In this document: in pieces, positions 1 through 11,090 of the stretch
Layout of the letters: every line of letters begins with the position of its first letter
How positions within the stretch are numbered: position 1 is the stretch's first letter
Assembly: GCA_013373385.1 (NCBI GenBank)
Contig: JABXHX010000017.1
Location: forward strand, 1-64,000
DNA length: 64,000 nt
Direction of reading: 5' to 3'
Origin: Flavobacteriaceae bacterium
GTDB lineage: Bacteria; Bacteroidota; Bacteroidia; Flavobacteriales; Flavobacteriaceae
Made by a program: the position numbers and the translations under genes
The notes under the pieces: generated by a model
Seen by the model: only the letters and a program-made list of their open reading frames with translations
The model's database searches: none
What the model was told of the DNA's origin: nothing

Positions 1-118
1 AAGTAATTGCTTGTTCTCGCCTACTTCTGAAAATCCTCACGGATTTTCAGTTTGGTGTGTACTTGCTAAATTAAGTGCAAACCCACGCAACTACTCATAG
101 CCGAGACCGTTGTAACCA
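1..118 (+). repeat. attC-like site A (left part outside window)
   Basis: This is the right part of an attC-like palindrome. It holds a perfect 10-bp hairpin CTGAAAATCC-TCAC-GGATTTTCAG (27-50), then the family-conserved ACGCAACTA, and ends in a GTT core that opens the next cassette (GTTGTAACCA, 109-118). The same modules occur at about 2.34-2.47, 4.36-4.50 and 8.40-8.53 kb. Its own R'' half lies to the left of the window. Confidence 0.65.
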
Positions 119-119
119 A

Positions 120-147
120 TTGACGCAAAGATGACGTTAACTTGACG
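120..147 (+). promoter_or_regulatory. Three TGACG repeats at 11-bp spacing
   Basis: TGACG occurs at 121, 132 and 143, in TTGACGCAAAG, ATGACGTTAAC and TTGACGTAAC, so the repeats are exactly one helical turn apart and lie on the same face of the DNA. They sit 25-50 bp upstream of a TACATTTG -7 box (172-179) for the XRE gene. A binding site for the encoded regulator or for an activator is a plausible reading; this is inference. Confidence 0.4.
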
Positions 148-171
148 TAACAAGTAATTATGTTTCCGATA

Positions 172-179
172 TACATTTG
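172..179 (+). promoter_or_regulatory. -7 box TACATTTG of XRE gene
   Basis: Matches the Bacteroidota TANNTTTG -7 element, 24 bp upstream of the ATG at 204. No clear TTG at the usual -33 distance is visible, which would fit activator-dependent transcription through the TGACG repeats. Confidence 0.45.
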
Positions 180-203
180 CTGAAACAATAAATAACATTC
201 AAA

Positions 204-869
204 ATGGAAACAAAAGATTTAGCAAAAAACTTAAAGAAATTAAGAGCAACTCGTGGAATGTCTCAAGAATATTTAGCAGACGAATCAAGAGTTAGCTTAA
301 GAACTATTCAAAGAATTGAAAATAATGAATCGGAACCAACAGGCGAAACGATTAAAAGAATAGCAATTGCGTTAGATGTAGAATTGACCGAGTTGATTGG
401 TTCAAATTCTGTGACAGAAACGAGCGATTTAAAAGCAACTATTATTTTTCTAAAAAAACAGCTTTCTAAAACAAATGAAAAATCGGAAATAAAAACATTT
501 GAAAGATTTATAGGAATTTTACAAAAACTAAAAGAAAAAGATTTAAGTATTGAACAGAGAGAAGGAATTGAAAGTTACATACAATATTTAGAACTTGAAA
601 AAATACCATCTTTTAGTAATGAAATGTTCAAAGTTAAACTGACAAAATTTAGAAAGTACTTAAAAAATAAATTACGTTTTGTACCAAAAAATTATTACAC
701 GACTTGGGCAGCAAGTTTTGGACTTTCATTTGCAGTTGGTTTTTCTGTTCAAAGTAATATAGATAATAACATTAAAATTGGAGTGATTTCAGTTGCTTCA
801 GTAATAATCGGAATTGGAATCATTATGGATATGAGAATGAAAAGACAGAAACGAACATTTAGTTTCTGA
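204..869 (+). CDS. XRE-family regulator with C-terminal membrane segments
   Basis: 221 aa. Residues about 5-65 form a Cro/C1-type helix-turn-helix (LKKLRATRGMSQEYLA, then SLRTIQRIENNESEPT), a DNA-binding fold. Residues 66-160 are charged and helical. The C-terminus has two hydrophobic stretches (about 167-182 and 190-209) followed by the basic tail KRQKR, so the protein is probably membrane-anchored. It is the only gene of cassette 1 and ends just before the attC-like site at 877. The ATG at 204 is the first in frame and lies 24 bp after a TANNTTTG box. The target genes are unknown; the TGACG repeats upstream may be one. The HTH call is secure, the sensing role is not known. Confidence 0.8.
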   Translation: METKDLAKNLKKLRATRGMSQEYLADESRVSLRTIQRIENNESEPTGETIKRIAIALDVELTELIGSNSVTETSDLKATIIFLKKQLSKTNEKSEIKTFERFIGILQKLKEKDLSIEQREGIESYIQYLELEKIPSFSNEMFKVKLTKFRKYLKNKLRFVPKNYYTTWAASFGLSFAVGFSVQSNIDNNIKIGVISVASVIIGIGIIMDMRMKRQKRTFSF

Positions 870-876
870 AAACAAC

Positions 877-956
877 TGGTTACAACACCGTGTATAAAAA
901 ATTGCTAAATTAGCTACTTAAACACACCACTAATCATATACAATCACGTTAGCCAC
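877..956 (+). repeat. attC-like site B (short form)
   Basis: R'' TGGTTACAAC (877-886), spacer ACC, L'' GTGTATAA (890-897), L' TCATATAC (934-941), spacer, R' GTTAGCCAC (948-956). GTGTAT pairs with ATATAC with one G-T wobble. It lacks the central AAATCC-type hairpin of sites A, C, D and E and is therefore only about 80 nt. It separates cassette 1 from cassette 2. Confidence 0.65.
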
Positions 957-2464
957 AAACAAAAAAAATGAGAAAACTTATAATCATATTACTTACCACT
1001 CTTCTATTTTCTTGTTCAAAACAAGGTCAATTTGATAAAAAGAAAGAAACAGAAGAAATTTTGAAGTTACACAACTTGCAACGAGATTATCATTTTAATA
1101 AAGATTCAATCTCTTTTGTAAATCAACTTTCTGAAAATTTTATCTCTGTCAATAAAGGTGTTATAACGCGGCCTGAAAGAAGTGAAATTTTGAATAGATA
1201 CAACAGTTACTTTTCTTCGGTTGAGTTTCTGAAGTGGGATGATGTCACCAAGCCTATAATCAAATTTTCTGAAGATGGTACGTTAGCATATTCAATTGTA
1301 GATAAAATAGTGAAGGTAATTTATAAAAATGAAATTGGAGAAAACGTATATGGAGAAACCCATTTCGCCTGGACTGCCATTTACAAAAAGTATGATGATA
1401 AGTGGAGAATTGAATGTGTCACTTCAACAGAGAAACCTAATAGTATAGGCGAAAAAGATTTTATCATTACTGAAAAAGACATAATACCTGAAGGTACAGC
1501 CTATAATTCCAAAACAAGCACTATATATATCGGTAGTATATACAAACAGAAAGTTATTGCAATATCGCCAAATGGAAATATAAACGACATCATCACCCAA
1601 GAAGTTTTTGAAAACTTGAGCCCTATTGGAATGGAAGTCGACAATAAGAACAATATACTTTGGACAAATGTTGCATTGGCACCGATAGTTAATAAAACAG
1701 GAAAGAACAAATGGAAAACAACAATTATGTCTTTCGACTTAACAACCAATAAACTAATTAAGAAGTATGATTTTATTGAGGGCAATCAAGTCTTTCTAAA
1801 TGATTTAACTATTGACAAAAATGGTGATGTATATGCAACTGAAAGTGTTAATAGTAATATATATAAACTAAATACACGTACAGATAAACTTGCAATATAT
1901 CTTGATTTGAAGAAATTTGGCTTTCCTAACGGCATTGTCTATAACCAACCACAACATTGTTTGTTTATTGCAACTAATGAAGGGATAGTGAAAATTGATA
2001 TTGAAACAAAAAAAGCGAAATTACTGGAGGTTGAAGAAAATATTAACGTCAAAGTTATTGATGGATTAGCAATTAACAATGATTATTTTATAGGTCATCA
2101 AAGTTCTAAAATATCAAAATTTTACTTTGATGAAAATATGGAAAGAATAATACGCTCAGAAATTTTTGATTCTGGAGATGAATTTGATTCAAGTACAACT
2201 GGAGAAGTAGGAAATGGTTTTTATCACTACATTGTCAACTCTCAAATAAGAAGTGGAATAAATAGAAAAAAAAACCAACTAAAACCGTTAGATAGTTTAG
2301 AAAATGTGATAATTAGAACAAGAATATTGAAATAGCCAGTGGCTAACAACTTGTATAATTCATTGCTAGTAATAGCCTACTTACGAAAGTCCTCGCAGAC
2401 TTTCTATCTGTGATTTACTTGCTGACTTGTCCCTAAACCACGCAACGAAATCATACACAAACAC
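948..2464 (+). mobile_element. Integron-like gene cassette 2 (SnoaL/propeller lipoprotein)
   Basis: Starts GTTAGCCAC (948-956); its 3' site opens with the exact reverse complement GTGGCTAAC (2339-2347). This 9-bp sequence differs from cassette 1, so the match is unit-specific, not a general repeat consensus. The gene starts only 20 bp from the left boundary with no visible promoter of its own, as is common for cassette genes. Confidence 0.65.
968..2335 (+). CDS. Lipoprotein: SnoaL-like domain fused to SMP-30/NHL-type beta-propeller
   Basis: 455 aa with an SPII signal (LLTTLLFSC, lipid-modified Cys about 16), so probably attached to an outer or inner membrane. Residues about 28-155 resemble the SnoaL/DUF4440 cone fold (HFAWTAIYKKYDDKWRIECV). 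Residues about 165-440 look like a six-bladed SMP-30/NHL propeller with repeated strands (LTIDKNGDVYATES, NGIVYNQPQHCLFIATNEG). Such propellers bind or hydrolyse small ligands, but I cannot name a substrate. The stop at 2335 lies three bases before the attC-like site, as in cassette genes. The two-domain order is unusual in my experience. Function unknown. Confidence 0.65.
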   Translation: MRKLIIILLTTLLFSCSKQGQFDKKKETEEILKLHNLQRDYHFNKDSISFVNQLSENFISVNKGVITRPERSEILNRYNSYFSSVEFLKWDDVTKPIIKFSEDGTLAYSIVDKIVKVIYKNEIGENVYGETHFAWTAIYKKYDDKWRIECVTSTEKPNSIGEKDFIITEKDIIPEGTAYNSKTSTIYIGSIYKQKVIAISPNGNINDIITQEVFENLSPIGMEVDNKNNILWTNVALAPIVNKTGKNKWKTTIMSFDLTTNKLIKKYDFIEGNQVFLNDLTIDKNGDVYATESVNSNIYKLNTRTDKLAIYLDLKKFGFPNGIVYNQPQHCLFIATNEGIVKIDIETKKAKLLEVEENINVKVIDGLAINNDYFIGHQSSKISKFYFDENMERIIRSEIFDSGDEFDSSTTGEVGNGFYHYIVNSQIRSGINRKKNQLKPLDSLENVIIRTRILK

Positions 2465-2473
2465 GTTATGTGC
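2339..2473 (+). repeat. attC-like site C (full form)
   Basis: R'' GTGGCTAAC (2339-2347), L'' TTGTATAA (2351-2358), central hairpin GAAAGTC-CTCGCA-GACTTTC (2385-2404), conserved ACGCAACGA, L' TCATACAC (2451-2458), R' GTTATGTGC (2465-2473). Compared with sites A and D the hairpin stem carries an A to G change that is compensated by T to C on the other arm, showing that pairing is under selection. Confidence 0.7.
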
Positions 2474-2541
2474 AAGTTGAATTAGAAACAAAAAGGAAAC
2501 AACTCAATCAAAGTTTTGAGAAAACAAGTAAGAGGATTAAC

Positions 2542-3393
2542 ATGTTGCAATTTGAATATATAGTACTTGCTCTCATGTACACAACTCTGTCGATATCACT
2601 ATTTCTACAGTGGTTATGTTTTAAGAAAAATATGGAAAATTGGGAAACGATTTCACTAACTATTTCTCTCTTATTATTGGTAATTTCGATGGGACTTTCC
2701 TCTTTCTTCTCAGAAAAAGAAACCACTACAATCACTACTTTACTATGTATGATTCTGGTAGGAGTGACTACCTTTATGGAATCCTTAAGTCAACAAAAAC
2801 ATTCTATTCCACCAACATATAAAATAGTTCAAATTGGTACTTCAATAGCCTTGACTATATGCGTTATCCTTGTCTATTTTTTTGAAAAAATGGCTTTTGT
2901 CCAATATGTTGTAGTTGGTTTCTTGGTTATTTCTGTTATAACCTCAATGCTAATTACCCGACAAACAAAACCAGTAAAACAATATAAACATCTTGAAAAG
3001 TCGAACAGAGTTTTCGCCTTCACATTTTTAACTTTAGTCCCAATTTATCTTGCTTTCCATTATGCTTTTGAAGAAGCTTATCAACAATTTCAAATGGGAT
3101 TTTTGCTTTACTTTGCTTTTATTGCACTTGCAATACGAAAAATATTTGACGATTTACATCGATTATCGCTCGTTAACAATACCTTAAAACCAATCGAACA
3201 GCATTTTAAAAACTATGGATTGACAAAAAGGGAACAAGAAATTGCTATTCTTCTCTTTGAAGGTTTAACCTATCAAAGCATAGCTGACCAGCTATTTATT
3301 TCACTCCCTACCATTAAGACTCATGCTAGCAATATCTATAAAAAATGCAAAGTAAAATCTCGTAATGAATTAACAAAGATTCTTGCCTCATAG
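2542..3393 (+). CDS. Membrane-anchored LuxR-type transcriptional regulator (copy 1)
   Basis: 283 aa from the ATG at 2542. The ORF track opens at a GTG (2470) inside the attC-like core, but the paralogue at 4542 starts at the same place as this internal ATG (MLQFEYIV against MLVIEYLI), so I use 2542. The first about 215 residues form six or so membrane helices. The C-terminus is a LuxR/GerE helix-turn-helix (YGLTKREQEIAILLFEG, ISLPTIKTHASNIYKK). This layout fits a one-component regulator that senses at the inner membrane. It is followed by a barrel gene whose upstream palindrome is a likely target. The two LuxR copies are plainly homologous along their whole length. Confidence 0.75.
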   Translation: MLQFEYIVLALMYTTLSISLFLQWLCFKKNMENWETISLTISLLLLVISMGLSSFFSEKETTTITTLLCMILVGVTTFMESLSQQKHSIPPTYKIVQIGTSIALTICVILVYFFEKMAFVQYVVVGFLVISVITSMLITRQTKPVKQYKHLEKSNRVFAFTFLTLVPIYLAFHYAFEEAYQQFQMGFLLYFAFIALAIRKIFDDLHRLSLVNNTLKPIEQHFKNYGLTKREQEIAILLFEGLTYQSIADQLFISLPTIKTHASNIYKKCKVKSRNELTKILAS

Positions 3394-3437
3394 CGAATTC
3401 TATTTACTAAACATTATAACCTACTAATTATCAGTAC

Positions 3438-3453
3438 TCATACTTTTGTATGA
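3438..3453 (+). promoter_or_regulatory. Palindrome TCATAC-TTTT-GTATGA, candidate LuxR operator
   Basis: Perfect 6-bp inverted repeat about 53 bp upstream of the TTG of the barrel promoter. A related copy (TCATACTTATATATGA, 5404-5419) stands at the same place before the second barrel gene, in an otherwise shared block (TTATCARTACTCATACTT...ATGATATT). LuxR-type HTH domains bind such dyads. Binding is inferred. Confidence 0.45.
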
Positions 3454-3490
3454 TATTTTTATTTTCACTAAAAATCATCCTATTATTCGA

Positions 3491-3520
3491 TTGTCTACCT
3501 TTATCTGGATAGTAGTTTTG
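3491..3520 (+). promoter_or_regulatory. Bacteroidota promoter before barrel gene 1
   Basis: TTG at 3491-3493, 19-bp spacer, TAGTTTTG at 3513-3520. It is placed identically to the promoter at 5457-5487, both sharing GATTGTCTA. The ATG at 3541 is 20 bp further on. Confidence 0.6.
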
Positions 3521-3540
3521 CTTCAAATTAAAAAACTATA

Positions 3541-4221
3541 ATGAAGTATAAACTATTATTCATCGCATTTTACGGAATTACCCTCCTTAATTTGAATGCT
3601 CAAGATTTAGCATTCAATAACAAAAATCTCATTACACAATTTGAAATCAAGGATTATTATTATTCAATTGCAAATGATCATTCTAAAAAGGATTCTATCA
3701 AAACTAGAAAAACCCAATTCTTTATCGGTTATGATTTTGGAGAGGCGGCTTTCAATAAATTTCAATCCCTCGGTGGAGAGATTGGAGTTAAATTTAAAAA
3801 CAATCATCAAGTAAGGCTATCCCACACGAGCATTCGTTTTACAGAAGCACACCTATCGTCAAGTTTTGCTGGTGCTGTAGATGGCAAAAATGTAAAAGGG
3901 AAACAATTTGGATTTGAATTATTTTATGATTTTCCAGTATTTTTTAATGGGTTTTATATTAGTCCTTCTTTGGGATATTACGATAATGAATACACACATA
4001 CAAATTTGAATGAAAAGCTCGAAAAGGCATCTTTCACCGTTGGTTCGGCAATCAGTTTTACTGAGGTAGATATATTTAAAGTAAAAGGGCTTTATTATAG
4101 AGTTTCTCTGCCATATCGATATACTTTTAATCCTCACAAGAAAACAAAATTGGGAGAAACCACCATCAAGAGCAATACTTTTGACAGTCATCTTTGGTTC
4201 TTTGTAGGATATCAATTTTAA
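3541..4221 (+). CDS. Outer-membrane beta-barrel protein (hypothetical)
   Basis: 226 aa with an SPI signal (MKYKLLFIAFYGITLLNLNA, cleavage before QD). The mature part is rich in alternating aromatic/polar strands (GFELFYDFPVFFNGFYISPSLGYY, cut here) and ends in F (VGYQF), the usual terminal residue of outer-membrane barrels. It is about the size for an 8-10 strand barrel. I do not recognise a named family. It lies 147 bp after a LuxR regulator gene and has its own TTG/TAGTTTTG promoter with a palindrome, so it is the likely target of that regulator. Role unknown; envelope adjustment or uptake are possibilities only. Confidence 0.6.
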   Translation: MKYKLLFIAFYGITLLNLNAQDLAFNNKNLITQFEIKDYYYSIANDHSKKDSIKTRKTQFFIGYDFGEAAFNKFQSLGGEIGVKFKNNHQVRLSHTSIRFTEAHLSSSFAGAVDGKNVKGKQFGFELFYDFPVFFNGFYISPSLGYYDNEYTHTNLNEKLEKASFTVGSAISFTEVDIFKVKGLYYRVSLPYRYTFNPHKKTKLGETTIKSNTFDSHLWFFVGYQF

Positions 4222-4354
4222 GCATAATTTTGCAAAAGCAACCAACAGAGTACTGCTAGACGAGGTAAATTAAATTCCAAAATAATTCAGTTTTAGTCAA
4301 TTTAGAATTTAAACTTATGAAAGTGGCTTTTCATCAAGAAGGAATAAACAAAAA

Positions 4355-4496
4355 CCTACACACAACACCGTGTATAATTCATTGTTGCTAGTACTAGCCT
4401 ACTTACAAAAATCCTCGCGGATTTTCTATTTCATTTGTATTTGCTAATTTAGTTGCTGAAATACGCAACGAAATCATACACAAAAACGTTGTATGA
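4355..4496 (+). repeat. attC-like site D (full form)
   Basis: R'' region CTACACACAAC (to 4366), spacer ACC, L'' GTGTATAA (4370-4377), central hairpin AAAATCC-TCGC-GGATTTT (4408-4425), ACGCAACGA, L' TCATACAC (4474-4481), spacer AAAAAC, R' GTTGTATGA (4488-4496). GTGTAT and ATACAC are a perfect 6-bp match. The stretch 4222-4354 before it, between the barrel stop and the site, shows nothing else I can name. Confidence 0.65.
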
Positions 4497-4541
4497 AAGC
4501 TGATAATCGCTTTAATGAAATGATAAATATTAGAAAATAAA

Positions 4542-5393
4542 ATGCTGGTAATAGAATATTTAATTCTTGGCCTTGTATACACATCACTAGTAGTTTCCTT
4601 GTTTCTACAATGGTTCTGTTATAAGAAGAAAATGGAAAATTGGGAAACGATAGTCTTTACAACATCACTTTTACTCTTGGTGATTTCAATTGGTCTATCT
4701 CCTATACTAGAAGAAGGAAACACAACCAGCACACTAACCTTAATTTGTATGGTTTTGGTTGCAATCACTACGGTTTTAGAGACATTAAGGCAACAAACAC
4801 ATAATATTCCCAGCCAATACAAGAAGATACATTTTGTAGTTGGGGTATTTTTAATCATATCTGTACTTATTGCTCGATTCTTTGATATGATGTTTTTCGT
4901 TCAATCAATAATCGTTGGGTTTCTTGTGATTTCTATTATTGTATCTATGTTGATTGTTCGAAAAACTAAATCCGTAAAACAATTTCAACACCTTGAAAAA
5001 TCAAACAGAATTTTCGGCATTGTATTTTTAATTATAGTTCCCATTTTTCTAATACATCACTATGGTTTTGAACAAGAAAGCTACTCGTTTCCAACAATTT
5101 TTCTACTCTATTTTGCCTTTATTGCCCTGGCAGCAAGAAAGATCCATGACGATCTGCAACGACTATCTATTACCAGCAAACAATTAGATCCAAATAAACA
5201 ACAATTCAAAAACTATGGATTAACGCAAAGGGAACAAGAAATAGCAACATTTCTATTTGATGGCTTAACCTATCAAGAGATAACTAACAAATTGCACATT
5301 TCACTTCCTACTGTAAAAACACACGCAAGTAACATTTACAAGAAATGTAGTGTGAAGAACCGTAATGAACTTAGCAGGTTACTAATGATCTAA
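4542..5393 (+). CDS. Membrane-anchored LuxR-type transcriptional regulator (copy 2)
   Basis: 283 aa, the same length as the copy at 2542 and homologous along its whole length (shared KMENWETI-type and HLEKSNR segments and LTxREQEIA in the HTH). The N-terminal about 215 residues contain about six membrane helices; the last 65 form a LuxR/GerE DNA-binding domain (ISLPTVKTHASNIYKK). It starts 54 bp inside unit 4 at an ATG. A barrel gene follows with the same type of regulatory block as copy 1. The pair was probably duplicated as a unit, then the regulators diverged. Signal and targets unknown; self-regulated barrel expression is a fair guess. Confidence 0.75.
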   Translation: MLVIEYLILGLVYTSLVVSLFLQWFCYKKKMENWETIVFTTSLLLLVISIGLSPILEEGNTTSTLTLICMVLVAITTVLETLRQQTHNIPSQYKKIHFVVGVFLIISVLIARFFDMMFFVQSIIVGFLVISIIVSMLIVRKTKSVKQFQHLEKSNRIFGIVFLIIVPIFLIHHYGFEQESYSFPTIFLLYFAFIALAARKIHDDLQRLSITSKQLDPNKQQFKNYGLTQREQEIATFLFDGLTYQEITNKLHISLPTVKTHASNIYKKCSVKNRNELSRLLMI

Positions 5394-5403
5394 TTATCAA
5401 TAC

Positions 5404-5419
5404 TCATACTTATATATGA
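5404..5419 (+). promoter_or_regulatory. Dyad TCATACTTATATATGA, second candidate LuxR operator
   Basis: Counterpart of 3438-3453, with five of six outer base pairs kept (TCATA/TATGA). It lies 37 bp upstream of the TTG of the next promoter inside a block conserved between the two loci. Confidence 0.4.
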
Positions 5420-5456
5420 TATTCATTTTATAGGCATAAATCAACCTATTACCTGA

Positions 5457-5487
5457 TTGTCTATTCTTGGAAGTACAAATAATTTTG
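5457..5487 (+). promoter_or_regulatory. Bacteroidota promoter before barrel gene 2
   Basis: TTG 5457-5459, 20-bp spacer, TAATTTTG 5480-5487. The ATG of the barrel gene is at 5508. Confidence 0.6.
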
Positions 5488-5507
5488 CTTCATAAAGAAA
5501 AGTATAA

Positions 5508-6791
5508 ATGAAGCATAAACTATTATCCATTGCCTTTGGTCTATTGATTAACTCTTTTGTTCTAGCCCAAAAAGACTCATCAAAAAAAGAAAGACTTGAT
5601 TTCGCAAAAATGTACTTTGAAATCGGAGGAACTTACCTTCCATCTTTTACAGGAAAGCAACTAGAAAATAATACAATAACTGCTTTTGATCATTCTGCAA
5701 CTCTTAATCCATATCTAACATGGGGTGGTTTTCACTTTTGGGGACATACCGAATTCTATGTCACTTTTCCTTTAAGTCAGTTAAGGTTAAATGAAGACAA
5801 TGGAACAAGTCACGAACTAAATCACTCGGTAGCCACAGGTGTAAGAATATATCCTTGGGCAATGGAAGAAAGAAAAATACGACCTTATATTGGAGCCAAT
5901 TGGGGAGCGCTAGACTTTAGGCAGATATTAGAGCCTGATAAAAATAAAAGTAAACTCTCCAAGGACTTTATGCTCAACTACGATGCAGGTGTTATGTATA
6001 ATTATAAAAAATTAGCCCTAAGGCTGGGTATTAATTTTTTTACAGATAATAAATGGTATTATCCTGTGAGCAAAACCCAGCTGTCAGAAATTAGAACTCC
6101 TAGAATGTCTTTTCAAATGGGACTGCTCTATTCCTTTGACTCAACAAAAGACACCAAAGAAGAAAATATTGATAAATGGAATAGTTATCCTACTGTTTCA
6201 AAATTATCTTATGATGCCAATAAATTTGGAGACCTATTTATAGGTATAGGGCCGTCGACTTCATTTTCACTTTCAGATTCTGACTATAACGCCATTCAGT
6301 TTCCTTATTTACAACAAAAACTAACTTCTACAAACTATTTTGATATAGCATTGGGTTATCATTTTAATCGAGCTAATCTGTTCACAGCTATATCTTATAG
6401 AAATCCAACTTTTGAAACCGAAGGTTTTGGGTCAAAACAAACCATTAAAAAGACTTCTTTAGCTGTAGAAGTTAATAAATTTCTGACTGACTATTCTGGC
6501 TTTGCACCGTATATTGGATTAAATATAGCCTATGATAGGTTTAACTATGAACAAAATGTTGATGGAGTTAAAACACAGCAAACTTTTACAAATGAAATTG
6601 AACCAGGTTTTACCTTCGGTTGGGATATTGTACCTGGTAAAACTAACGAAGCTTTGATATTAAGAACCAATTTGAGGTGGTATCCGTTTTCTAAATTTGA
6701 AATAGATGGCACAAAATTTAATTTTAGTCAATTGGAATACAACTTGATTCAAGTCGTTTTTTATCCTGAAAGACTTAAAAAAAGGAAATAA
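5508..6791 (+). CDS. Outer-membrane beta-barrel protein, two-part
   Basis: 427 aa with an SPI signal (MKHKLLSIAFGLLINSFVLA, cleavage before QK). The mature chain contains two barrel-like halves (about 30-205 and 235-420), each with strands such as IRPYIGANWGAL and GFAPYIGLNIAYDRF. No periplasmic OmpA-type domain follows. The signal peptide and the upstream regulatory block resemble those of the gene at 3541, but the mature proteins do not look alike, so the two loci share regulation but not payload. Preceded by LuxR copy 2 (114 bp gap). Family not recognised; localisation is fairly safe, function unknown. Confidence 0.6.
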   Translation: MKHKLLSIAFGLLINSFVLAQKDSSKKERLDFAKMYFEIGGTYLPSFTGKQLENNTITAFDHSATLNPYLTWGGFHFWGHTEFYVTFPLSQLRLNEDNGTSHELNHSVATGVRIYPWAMEERKIRPYIGANWGALDFRQILEPDKNKSKLSKDFMLNYDAGVMYNYKKLALRLGINFFTDNKWYYPVSKTQLSEIRTPRMSFQMGLLYSFDSTKDTKEENIDKWNSYPTVSKLSYDANKFGDLFIGIGPSTSFSLSDSDYNAIQFPYLQQKLTSTNYFDIALGYHFNRANLFTAISYRNPTFETEGFGSKQTIKKTSLAVEVNKFLTDYSGFAPYIGLNIAYDRFNYEQNVDGVKTQQTFTNEIEPGFTFGWDIVPGKTNEALILRTNLRWYPFSKFEIDGTKFNFSQLEYNLIQVVFYPERLKKRK

Positions 6792-6792
6792 A

Positions 6793-7221
6793 AGCCAGCA
6801 CACAATTATTGGTTTTGTACCTAGACCAAGACCACTTTATAAATGGCATTTTGGAGCTTACGGATTAGGGTGGGTGATTTCTCATATTCACGATTATTCT
6901 ATTATCTCTCATACAGGTAGCCTATCAGGAATGTTGTCTTCAGTAATAATTGTACCAGAAATAAATTCTGCTGTAATAGTTCTTACAAACAGTTCTCAAG
7001 GAGGAAATAGCTACAACACTATAAGTTCTGCAATTCGTGATGAATGGATTGGTCGAAAAAGGTAGGATTATTTAACCAACACTAAAGAACAACTTGAATT
7101 TGCAGAATCTTGGAATAATTCAAAAACTCAAGAAGTATGGAAGACAGTAACAATTTCAAATACCAGAAAAATAAACGTTATACAACATTTAGAAACTACT
7201 AGATTTTCTTTTATAAAGTAA
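6793..7221 (+). pseudogene. Serine hydrolase (beta-lactamase-like) C-terminal remnant with internal stop
   Basis: Conceptual translation in one frame gives FVPRPRPLYKWHFG, YGLGWVISHIHDY, SHTGSLSGMLSSV and IVLTNSS. This is the C-terminal part of a PBP4*/class C beta-lactamase-type serine hydrolase, with HTG in the place of the KTG box. The SxxK and YxN boxes are missing, so the 5' part is lost. An in-frame TAG (7063-7065) interrupts the frame, which continues as DYLTNTKEQLEFAESWNN to a TAA at 7219-7221. The ORF track shows only 63 aa of it. There is no start signal. It fills the 478-bp gap between the barrel gene and the intact hydrolase. Confidence 0.65.
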
Positions 7222-7269
7222 CATTTTAACCCATTATTCGTCTATATCAAACAGCCAAAAAATTATTAA

Positions 7270-8391
7270 ATGAAATTTAAAATATCCCTGTTAGTTTGCC
7301 TCGTTGTATTTTCAAATTGTAAAAATTTAGAAAAAAAACCTAAAGTTGAAACTATAGACCCAATTCAAATTTCGATGGACAAAAACGCAGATTCACTTCT
7401 CTTGGATTCGAAAATAAATGCTGTTTCAATCGGAATTTATAAAAATGGCAAAAAGTATATTTCTCACTATGGCGAATTAGATAAAGGAAAAAGCAACAAA
7501 CCAAACGATAATACTATTTATGAAATAGCATCTGTAAGTAAAACTTTTACTGGAATTCTTGTTGCAAATGCTGTGCTCGAAGGAAAATTAAACCTTGACG
7601 ATGATATTCGAAAGTACTTAAAAGAAGATTTCAAAAATTTTGAATACAATAAACAACCTATAAAAATAAAGCATTTACTCACGCACACAAGTGAAATGAG
7701 AAAATTTTTACCTGAAAGTATTAATGAATTATTTTCCGATTTTAATGAAGATTTACCGTTTAAGGTTTATGAAATTCAAAAGAATTATACCAAAAAGGAT
7801 TTCTTTTCTGACTTACAGAAAATTAAGTTAGATACTATTCCTGGCTCACGATATGGTTATTCAAATGTAGATACAGAGATTATGGCTCAAATATTAGAAT
7901 ATATATATGACAGATCATTTAATGATATTTTAAAAGACTATTTCCAGATAAATGCAAATATGCAAAATACTCAGATTGACCTTCCAAAAAACAAACAACA
8001 ATATCTAGCAAATGGTTACGGAATGACAGGAAAGCTTGTTCCTCATGAAATTGTATTGTATGGAGCAGATGGCGGTGTAAAAACTACAATGCCAGATTTA
8101 GTAAATTATATGGCGTTTCAGTTAGATAAAACCAAACCTACTATTATAGAATCTCACAGAATTCTCTATGAAAATGGAAATCGAAAAATGGCTTATTATT
8201 TGCCAATAAAAAGCAACGAAGAATATGGTGTTTATTATAATATGCACGGAGGAGGTTTTGGAACTCAAAATTGGTTTTTTATTATCCCAAAATATGATTT
8301 AGGAATCTCTGTAATCACAAATCAAAGTGATTTAGATACTGCAAATAAATTAGTAAAAACTGTTAAAGGGCTGATTATTGATTTGAAATAA
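7270..8391 (+). CDS. Serine hydrolase lipoprotein, beta-lactamase/PBP-like family
   Basis: 373 aa with an SPII signal (LVCLVVFSNC, Cys about 17). Boxes of the Beta-lactamase (class C/PBP4*) family are visible: SxxK in IASVSKTFTG (nucleophile Ser), YxN in YGYSNVDTE, and HGGG (in place of KTG) near residue 330 in MHGGGFGTQNW. Enzymes of this family include D-aminopeptidases, esterases and peptidoglycan-acting peptidases; the substrate cannot be told. It is the last gene of unit 4, six bases before attC-like site E. A broken relative lies just upstream (6793-7221). The ATG at 7270 gives a complete lipoprotein signal. Confidence 0.75.
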   Translation: MKFKISLLVCLVVFSNCKNLEKKPKVETIDPIQISMDKNADSLLLDSKINAVSIGIYKNGKKYISHYGELDKGKSNKPNDNTIYEIASVSKTFTGILVANAVLEGKLNLDDDIRKYLKEDFKNFEYNKQPIKIKHLLTHTSEMRKFLPESINELFSDFNEDLPFKVYEIQKNYTKKDFFSDLQKIKLDTIPGSRYGYSNVDTEIMAQILEYIYDRSFNDILKDYFQINANMQNTQIDLPKNKQQYLANGYGMTGKLVPHEIVLYGADGGVKTTMPDLVNYMAFQLDKTKPTIIESHRILYENGNRKMAYYLPIKSNEEYGVYYNMHGGGFGTQNWFFIIPKYDLGISVITNQSDLDTANKLVKTVKGLIIDLK

Positions 8392-8396
8392 AAACG

Positions 8397-8531
8397 TTTT
8401 ACAACACCGCATAAAATTAATTGCTAGTACAGCGTTTACTTACGAAAATCCTCGCGGTTTTTCTATTCGGTTTGTATGTGCTAAATTAAGTACTCAAACA
8501 ACGCAACTAACCAAACACAAGACCTTTGTGA
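8397..8531 (+). repeat. attC-like site E (decayed, terminal)
   Basis: Opens TTTTACAAC-ACC, with the family block ATTGCTAGTAC, hairpin GAAAATCC-TCGC-GGTTTTTC (8444-8463, one T-T mismatch), ACGCAACTA, and ends GACC-TTTGTGACAC. Site A ends GACC-GTTGTAACC, so the crossover G of the GTT core is replaced by T (8525). L''/L' pairing is poor. Loss of the core at the array end fits a site that can no longer recombine. Confidence 0.55.
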
Positions 8532-8550
8532 CACATTCAACTAACGTTCA

Positions 8551-8590
8551 ACTTTTGTTGCTCCGTGCTTCGCACTCCCACCCCAAAAGA
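8551..8590 (+). repeat. Hairpin CTTTTG...GTGC-TTC-GCAC...CAAAAG
   Basis: Outer arms CTTTTG (8552-8557) and CAAAAG (8584-8589), inner arms GTGC (8565-8568) and GCAC (8572-8575). The segment is more GC-rich than its surroundings and is not followed by a T-run, so it is not a standard terminator. It lies just right of the terminal attC-like site. Confidence 0.35.
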
Positions 8591-8597
8591 TTGTGTT

Positions 8598-8796
8598 CTA
8601 ACAGACCTGCAAACCTAATCTGATCCTGTAACTTTTATTCCTCATCAGCCAGAATTTGGCAAATAATAATTACTTCCTAATCTATTTGATAAACTTTTAT
8701 TAGAATTTTTAGCAAAAGTCCCTTTTCTAATAATAGTTAATCAAATTATTTATATTTACTCAAAAAATGCAGAACTACGTTTTCTAGGTCTGTTAG
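8598..8796 (+). repeat. Inverted repeat pair CTAACAGACCT / AGGTCTGTTAG
   Basis: Perfect 11-bp inverted repeats at 8598-8608 and 8786-8796, 177 bp apart, in a non-coding AT-rich stretch before the GH89 gene. The flanks also agree partly (TTGTGTT- and -GCACATA). AAC and GTT sit inside the arms as in attC ends, but the conserved inner modules are absent. It could be a non-autonomous element or a structure-forming leader. The rest of 8532-8840 shows nothing else. Confidence 0.4.
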
Positions 8797-8840
8797 CACA
8801 TATAAAAATCACATTTTAAGAAATAGCTAAAACACAAACA

Positions 8841-11090
8841 ATGATAAGCAAATCGATAAATACTTATATAAGCCTCTTTTTATTGTTAATAATTTTCATT
8901 TGCTCCTGCAAAACAGAACAAAAATCAGCTGTTGTTAAATCCTCAGAGCAGTTAATTGAAAGGTTGTTGCCTGAATATAGTAATCAATTTATTATTCAGG
9001 AGAAGCCTAGTTTGAATGGGAATGATTTTTTTGAAATTGAAAATGGGAAGAATCAGAAAATAATTATCAGAGGAAATAATCCCATATCAATAGCTTCTGG
9101 ATTTAATTATTATTTGAAACATGTTGCAAATTGTCACATCTCATGGAACGGCGATCAACTGAACCTCCCTTCTAAATTGCCTCCAATAATTCAAAAAATC
9201 AGAAAAGAAAGTCTGTACAAATCTAATTTTAATTTTAATTACTGCACATTTAATTACACTATGCTATGGTGGGATTGGAATCGTTGGGAAAGAGAAATTG
9301 ACTTTATGGCACTAAACGGCGTTAATATGCCACTTGCAATTGTTGGCATGGAAGCCGTATGGTATAATTTTTTGAAACGATACAATTATTCTGATAAGGA
9401 TGCAAAAGAATTTATTTCGGGACCAGGCTACACAGCATGGTGGTTAATGGGAAATTTAGAAGGACGAGGTGGTCCTATGACCTCAGAATGGATAGAAGGG
9501 CGAATTGTATTGCAAAAGAAAATATTAAAGAGAATGCGTAAACTAGGTATGCGTCCTGTATTACCTGGTTTTGTAGGGCTTGTACCAACATCATTAGATA
9601 AAGTTGTTCCATCTGCGAAGCTTTTAGATCAAGGAAAATGGTTAAATGATACACGGCCTGCTGTTTTAAACCCAGAAACACCTTTATTTGATGAAATGGC
9701 AAAAGCATGGTATGAAGAACTAGACAACCTTTATGGTTCTGTTGATGCTTTTTCAGGAGACTTATTTCATGAAGGAGGCAAAACGCATGGATTAGATATA
9801 GGTAATATTGCCGCTAAAGTTCAAAAACATATGATTGAATATAATCCGAATTCAATATGGTGTATACAAGGTTGGGGTGGCAATCCAAAGAAAACACTTT
9901 TAGAAGGGCTTAAAGATGAAAACACTTTAATTATAGAACTCTGTGGAGAGTATTTTAAAAACTGGAGAAAAACTGATGGTTTTAATGGTAAGCCTTGGGT
10001 ATTTAGCACAATAATTCAATATGGTGGTAATGTTGGCTTACATGGACGTCTGAAAGATTTAGCAAATAATCTAATTGATGCGCAGTCAATAAAAAATGAG
10101 CCTATAGGAATAGGAACAACATGGGAAAGTATAGAAATAAACCCTATTATTAATGATTTTTTAAGCGATATGAGATGGGAATCAAATGTTCCTGATATCG
10201 AAGAATGGTGTGAAAATTATGCAGTACGAAGATATGGTTTTGATTCTGAAAACATTCGAAAAGGATGGAATATCATTCTCAAAACAGCTTATGGAACTTA
10301 TAAAAATCATAGGAGACCAACTGAGTCAATTTTTTGTGCTCCGCCATCTTTAAAAGTGAAAAAAGCGTCTCCATTTGCTGCTTCTATTAAAGTACATTAT
10401 GACCAAAGGGATTTTCGTGATGCCATTAATTTAATGCTTTTAGATGCCGAAATCGGAGCTGATCAAGCTACTTATAAATATGATATTGTTGATTTTACAA
10501 GGCAATTTATGGCTAATGCAGCTCAAATTCCATATAATTTGATGGTAAAAGCTTTTCAAGAGAAAAACATTTCTGCTTTTGAAGAATCTGCTGGTCAATT
10601 TTTAGAAATGATTGATGATCAAGACCGGTTGTTAGCTACAGAAACGTCATTTTTACTTGGAAAATGGATTAACGACGCAAGGAAAAGCACTACTACACCT
10701 AAACAAATAGCTCAAAATGAGAGTAATGCTCGCGTTTTAATTACTACTTGGACAAAAGAAAAATCAGGTTTGGACAACTATGCTTGGCGTGAGTGGAATG
10801 GCTTGTTAAGTACCTATTATAAACCTCGTTGGGAGCTGTTTATTAATAATTTAAGAAATCAATTAAACGGAGCTTCTGCTCAAAAAACTGACTTTTATTC
10901 ATTTCAAAGTAAATGGTCAAACCAAAAATGGGAAGATCAGAATTATCTTATAAATCCTATTGGAAACCCACTAAAAATTGCAAAAGAGTTAATAAAAAAA
11001 TGGAGCTTTTTAATTGATAATCCTGAAAAATATATGGGCCCGAAAACAAAAAAAACAGATAAAATTGAAACTTCAAAAGAAGCACGATAA
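8841..11090 (+). CDS. Alpha-N-acetylglucosaminidase, GH89 (NAGLU) lipoprotein
   Basis: 749 aa, about the length of human NAGLU. SPII signal (IIFICSC, Cys about 23) points to a membrane-attached exoenzyme. Typical GH89 blocks: a small N-terminal domain (about 30-115), then YCTFNYTMLWWDWNRWEREI and DFMALNGVNMPLA at the start of the catalytic barrel, AFSGDLFHEGG, and the helical C-terminal domain. The family releases terminal alpha-linked GlcNAc from glycans such as heparan or mucin-like chains. No SusC/D or other CAZyme genes are next to it, so it is not in a visible polysaccharide locus. Start ATG chosen for the complete signal peptide. Confidence 0.9.
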   Translation: MISKSINTYISLFLLLIIFICSCKTEQKSAVVKSSEQLIERLLPEYSNQFIIQEKPSLNGNDFFEIENGKNQKIIIRGNNPISIASGFNYYLKHVANCHISWNGDQLNLPSKLPPIIQKIRKESLYKSNFNFNYCTFNYTMLWWDWNRWEREIDFMALNGVNMPLAIVGMEAVWYNFLKRYNYSDKDAKEFISGPGYTAWWLMGNLEGRGGPMTSEWIEGRIVLQKKILKRMRKLGMRPVLPGFVGLVPTSLDKVVPSAKLLDQGKWLNDTRPAVLNPETPLFDEMAKAWYEELDNLYGSVDAFSGDLFHEGGKTHGLDIGNIAAKVQKHMIEYNPNSIWCIQGWGGNPKKTLLEGLKDENTLIIELCGEYFKNWRKTDGFNGKPWVFSTIIQYGGNVGLHGRLKDLANNLIDAQSIKNEPIGIGTTWESIEINPIINDFLSDMRWESNVPDIEEWCENYAVRRYGFDSENIRKGWNIILKTAYGTYKNHRRPTESIFCAPPSLKVKKASPFAASIKVHYDQRDFRDAINLMLLDAEIGADQATYKYDIVDFTRQFMANAAQIPYNLMVKAFQEKNISAFEESAGQFLEMIDDQDRLLATETSFLLGKWINDARKSTTTPKQIAQNESNARVLITTWTKEKSGLDNYAWREWNGLLSTYYKPRWELFINNLRNQLNGASAQKTDFYSFQSKWSNQKWEDQNYLINPIGNPLKIAKELIKKWSFLIDNPEKYMGPKTKKTDKIETSKEAR

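Follow-up and report, generated by a model that had tools for sequence, protein, structure and literature searches.

The window (the whole 64,000-nucleotide stretch analysed here, corresponding to contig C81 in a genome of 98 contigs) very probably carries the distal end of an integron-like cassette array, most likely run by a tyrosine recombinase encoded on contig C93 of the same genome and acting on sites folded from the bottom strand. The features that carry this reading, namely a folded bottom strand, a cassette unit, breakpoints at GTT, attI-like junctions and linkage of arrays to a recombinase gene, can be followed directly in the sequences of this and related genomes.

attC-like sites in the window and selection on their folded form

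Four complete or nearly complete sites are present in the window, B being short and E degenerate, together with site A, which is truncated by the contig edge. The sites and the cassettes between them, each running from one GTT to the next, are as follows:

1–111, + strand: attC-like site A, left end lost at the contig edge; central hairpin at 29–48; GTT at its end (109–111)
109–947, + strand: cassette 1; ORF 204–869, an HTH_3 regulator with a membrane segment
884–950, + strand: attC-like site B, a short form without the central hairpin
948–2464, + strand: cassette 2; ORF 968–2335, a predicted lipoprotein with a weak SGL match
2345–2467, + strand: attC-like site C, 123 nt; hairpin arms at 2385–2391 and 2398–2404; CM R1 E = 1.1e-14
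2465–4487, + strand: cassette 3; LuxR-type regulator 2542–3393 and ORF 3541–4221
4364–4490, + strand: attC-like site D, 127 nt; CM R1 E = 9.4e-19
4488–8524, + strand: cassette 4; LuxR-type regulator 4542–5393, ORF 5508–6791 and a beta-lactamase-fold protein 7270–8391
8403–8527, + strand: attC-like site E, degenerate and the last of the array; CTTT replaces GTT; CM R1 E = 7.1e-15

The CM found 42 sites in the genome to which the window belongs, several of them at contig ends. The LuxR-type regulators of cassettes 3 and 4 (window 2542–4221 and 4542–6791) are paralogues, with DNA that is about 70% identical, and in both cassettes the regulator is followed by an ORF of secreted or membrane type.

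The original prediction had drawn attention to a central hairpin in these repeats, both arms of which appeared to have changed together, and this compensatory change was confirmed: GAAAATC (29–35) and GATTTTC (42–48) in site A correspond to GAAAGTC (2385–2391) and GACTTTC (2398–2404) in site C, an A-T pair having been replaced by G-C. Site E has lost one pair and kept the remainder, as had been stated. The statement that site D agrees with A holds at the changed pair but not at the outermost one, where D (AAAAATC/GATTTTC) has A·C on the top strand and T·G on the bottom. In a mixed alignment of all 137 distinct sites no covariation of the hairpin was seen, because the centre probably differs among site subtypes, and a subset of 53 sites was therefore used, which had been picked via an upstream anchor with the arms not inspected. 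In this sample the pair in question was A-T in 35 sites and G-C in 14, with a double-sided change on four branches of the tree; it ranked second of ~3,300 column pairs, yet gave E = 0.17 against a phylogeny-aware null, and the remaining seven pairs of the hairpin were almost invariant. Consequently, the central hairpin by itself is no more than suggestive of selection on folding.

The decisive covariation evidence is the outer stem, of which the original prediction had made no use. A total of 155 sites was refined from 32 loci, with a length from AAC to GTT of 118–130 nt in 144 of them, and the 137 distinct sites, from the window's own and related genomes, were taken for covariation. The top seven of 1,020 left-right column pairs fell along a single diagonal, on which left column i faces right column i+3. 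A covariation test on a larger alignment had been suggested together with the hairpin claim, and in the 137 sites it gave six significant pairs (E < 0.02), all of them in this same outer stem, under a phylogeny-aware, parsimony-based null model that moves substitutions randomly along the tree. When 70 diverse sites were considered, 12 of the 14 outer-stem pairs had changed on both sides and the stem score was 0.413, compared with 0.105±0.010 and with 0.119 for the best shifted register; double-change cells in the stem numbered 145, as against 40.6 in shuffles. The L stem is in register and contains no extra bases, the asymmetry sitting in a 3/6-nt spacer.

The strand that folds is indicated by the mismatches. 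In two stem columns the top strand reads A·C in almost every site, equivalent to T·G on the bottom, and beyond these two columns top A·C (bottom G·T) outnumbered top G·T by 71 to 4. In DNA folding the bottom strand had the lower energy in 132 of the 137 sites, which are related to one another, so that these counts are not independent. Together with the outer-stem covariation, these results support the original proposal that selection acts on a folded single strand, and they indicate that this strand is the bottom one, as for attC. They also bear on the idea that the repeats act as transcription terminators or as structured RNA elements, with covariation serving an RNA function and recombination secondary. 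The hairpins are indeed intergenic, and covariation occurs in RNAs too; however, the strand favoured by the wobbles is antisense to the co-oriented genes, an Rfam search of window positions 1–9000 matched no family, and pairing between cassette ends ~0.8 kb apart, like the breakpoints at GTT (both described below), would be inexplicable by RNA. We regard this reading as extremely improbable.

Cassette ends, breakpoints and mobility

In 77% of 122 cassettes the 6 nt after GTT were the perfect complement of the 6 nt before the AAC of the next site, compared with 5% within the same site and 2% at random. Cassette-end matches numbered 660, as against 278±15 (maximum 327) over 2,000 permutations, for partners that lie ~0.8 kb apart. 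The four cassettes of the window paired at 6/6, 6/6, 4/6 and 4/6 positions, the first through GTAACC (112–117) and GGTTAC (878–883) and the second through AGCCAC and GTGGCT. The second base of the variable stretch after GTT was G in 64 cases, T in 61 and C in 30, and so the sites depart from the GTTRRRY/RYYYAAC consensus.

Traces of movement coincided with the same boundaries. One cassette was found in two arrays at 99.94% identity over 1,652 bp, with exact breaks at GTT and different neighbours, and another near-identical cassette is common to Winogradskyella, again with its break exactly at GTT; such exact breaks were thus seen inside a single genome as well as across genera. The genome of the window itself has one and the same cassette start in two places, on C93 behind the attI-like junction and on C51 behind an attC-like site. 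On these sequence comparisons an integron logic of the arrays is well supported, and the likening of the repeats to attC in the original prediction is backed by the pairing of cassette ends, the attI-like junctions, the GTT breakpoints and the adjacent recombinase.

The array-linked recombinase

In related genomes the arrays begin directly 3′ of a tyrosine recombinase gene of ~385 residues, which was found immediately upstream of arrays, and co-oriented with them, in several families. A profile-free de novo scan around the recombinases gave 140 sites downstream, one upstream and six antisense, compared with four sites in the reversed control (1.18 Mb). In most related loci an attI-like site lies 30–170 nt past the recombinase stop codon, and its GTT and the following 6 nt agree with the first cassette's end at 8–9 of 9 positions; one genome has two arrays with identical attI and different first cassettes. 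The recombinase gene of the window's own genome is on C93, adjoining recJ, and the window array could not be joined to it because the contigs end in repeats.

This arrangement has to be weighed against the possibility that the sites are CALIN-type clusters mobilised by an ordinary IntI, encoded elsewhere or lost, with the adjacent recombinase incidental. Canonical attC sites can move in trans, and many of the present sites have no recombinase of the family anywhere near, for example those scattered across the G019 chromosome. However, in several families the recombinase gene lies directly upstream and co-oriented, with an attI-like site right past its stop codon, the window's own genome contains no match up to the IntI cut-off, and of the loci with a true IntI none had sites of this architecture. 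We therefore consider this explanation improbable and favour the array-linked recombinase as the enzyme concerned.

The catalytic residues R, K, H, R, H and Y were invariant in 15 recombinases. The spacing between GKGxKDR and HxLRH was 57–60 residues, compared with 99–101 in the IntI rows, indicating that the IntI insert of ~41 residues is absent; the match to TIGR02249 (210 bits, under the cut-off of 265) came in two pieces, as did that to PDB 2a3v. A 99/92 branch of the tree parts the IntI rows from the array-linked recombinases, one member passed the cut-off of NF040815 (‘site-specific tyrosine recombinase/integron integrase’), and among solved structures those of XerA proteins (PDB 5hxy, 4a8e) came closest to the catalytic part. 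Judged by the missing insert, the bit scores and the tree, the array-linked recombinase is not a canonical IntI.

Ahead of the catalytic part lies an N-terminal domain. Of the array-linked recombinases from outside the genus, 13/13 had it, as against 0/13 IntI-clade rows, and some members carry it in tandem. The structure of this domain was predicted with a pLDDT of 89, and the top Foldseek match was the HARP domain of SMARCAL1 (PDB 4o66; probability 0.92, E = 0.06, which is statistically weak), the XPB damage-recognition domain being among the next matches. PF07443 was matched in 2 of 15 members with a best E of 7.8e-4, below the curated cut-off (13.5 bits versus 25 in L008). The resemblance therefore has weak statistics, and the HARP and XPB damage-recognition domains differ from the domain described here in being parts of DNA-remodelling helicases. 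Xer proteins, although the nearest solved relatives of the catalytic part, have no such N-terminal domain and act at dif rather than at cassette arrays. Recombinases with the same N-terminal domain were also seen in two MAGs, one of Undinarchaeales (L128) and one of Spirochaetota (L119).

The IntI insert has been described as necessary for recombination of folded attC sites (PMC9024848, PMC8138268). Its absence, together with the kinship to XerA, could mean that the recombinase uses double-stranded sites, as Xer does at dif, and that the hairpin only aids cruciform extrusion or regulation. The stems, however, vary in sequence and keep their pairing, and the wobbles fall on the bottom strand, which argues that structure rather than duplex sequence is selected; we consider double-stranded sites unlikely. 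Smyshlyaev et al. reported that the insert is incompletely conserved within their integron-like subgroup (PMC8138268), and relatives of the present recombinase may therefore already belong there.

Returning to recombination of folded sites, we infer that the C93 recombinase is the actor on these sites and that it acts on single strands. The bottom strand of each ~125-nt repeat forms a long imperfect hairpin, and the recombinase would most likely cut inside the GTT of the folded sites and inside that of the short attI-like site just past its own gene, so that cutting at GTT would allow gene cassettes to be inserted, excised and shuffled. The HARP-like N-terminal domain may recognise the folded site, replacing the absent IntI-specific insert.

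Distribution and relation to known integrons

Sites were detected with the CM in 59/60 genomes of the source genus and, in a sample of the class, in 39/149 Bacteroidia genomes (34/100 genera); many genomes had at least 50 sites. With a threshold of E ≤ 1e-60 for the class sample, the recombinase profile matched 32/39 site-bearing genomes and 54/110 others (Fisher p = 2.3e-4). The linkage of sites and recombinase is imperfect at this sensitivity, because 7/39 site-bearing genomes had no match and the 54/110 matched without detected sites.

Related elements were also observed on plasmids. A plasmid of Chryseobacterium sp. SNU WT5 (L177 8974–12391) carries a recombinase, an attI-like junction and an array with ends pairing at 6/6, 5/6 and 6/6 positions. 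A mobilizable plasmid of Flagellimonas marinaquae, which also carries erm(F), has an intact cassette bearing a gene of the dihydrofolate reductase family, with two flanking sites and ends pairing at 6/6 (L178 3905–4738). In plasmid p80-1-2-tetX3 of Acinetobacter indicus (L176 4052–6073) a 5′-truncated tyrosine recombinase, a relative of the array-linked family (43.5% identity, residues 130–364), lies directly upstream of tet(X3), and the junction preceding tet(X3), ...CCACTT|GTTATGTGCCAT, is like the attI-like junctions of L108 and L121. Despite this fitting 5′ junction, tet(X3) is at most a candidate cassette of the system, because its 3′ end pairs at just 3/6 positions.

The system shares with integrons (IntI/attI/attC, including sedentary chromosomal ones) a recombinase gene with an adjoining attI-like site and large cassette arrays, as well as sites folded from the bottom strand, AAC/GTT ends, a breakpoint at GTT and complementary ends for each cassette. 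It differs in its recombinase, which lacks the ~41-residue insert, is placed outside the IntI clade and carries an additional N-terminal domain, and in its sites, which are of near-constant length (~125 nt), show not GTTRRRY but GTT with six variable, paired bases behind it, and contain the asymmetric 3/6-nt spacer. A co-oriented array 3′ of the recombinase is also found in spirochaete integrons, where intI is reversed, and in archaeal integrons, where attI is downstream of intI (PMC9668308); however, the IntI-specific domain is a defining feature of those integrases (PMC9668308) and is missing here. Although integron-like in its working, the system was not filed as an integron, because the recombinase has neither the IntI insert nor a place in the IntI clade. 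Whether it represents a second widespread class of integron in Bacteroidota, with an Xer-like recombinase, a HARP-like N-terminal domain in place of the IntI insert and an origin independent of, or long before, canonical IntI, seems to us evenly balanced.

A search of an open-access library turned up no earlier report of the system. IntegronFinder 2.0 listed a single complete integron from Bacteroidetes, in Salinibacter ruber (PMC9024848), and the IntI-specific domain is the criterion by which integron surveys recognise integrons; a system whose recombinase lacks this domain is therefore not expected to be detected by current search rules. If the role of the recombinase were confirmed, the IntI insert would be dispensable for recombination of folded sites, and a large gene-exchange system of marine and other Bacteroidota, sometimes plasmid-borne, would have been missed by IntI-based rules.
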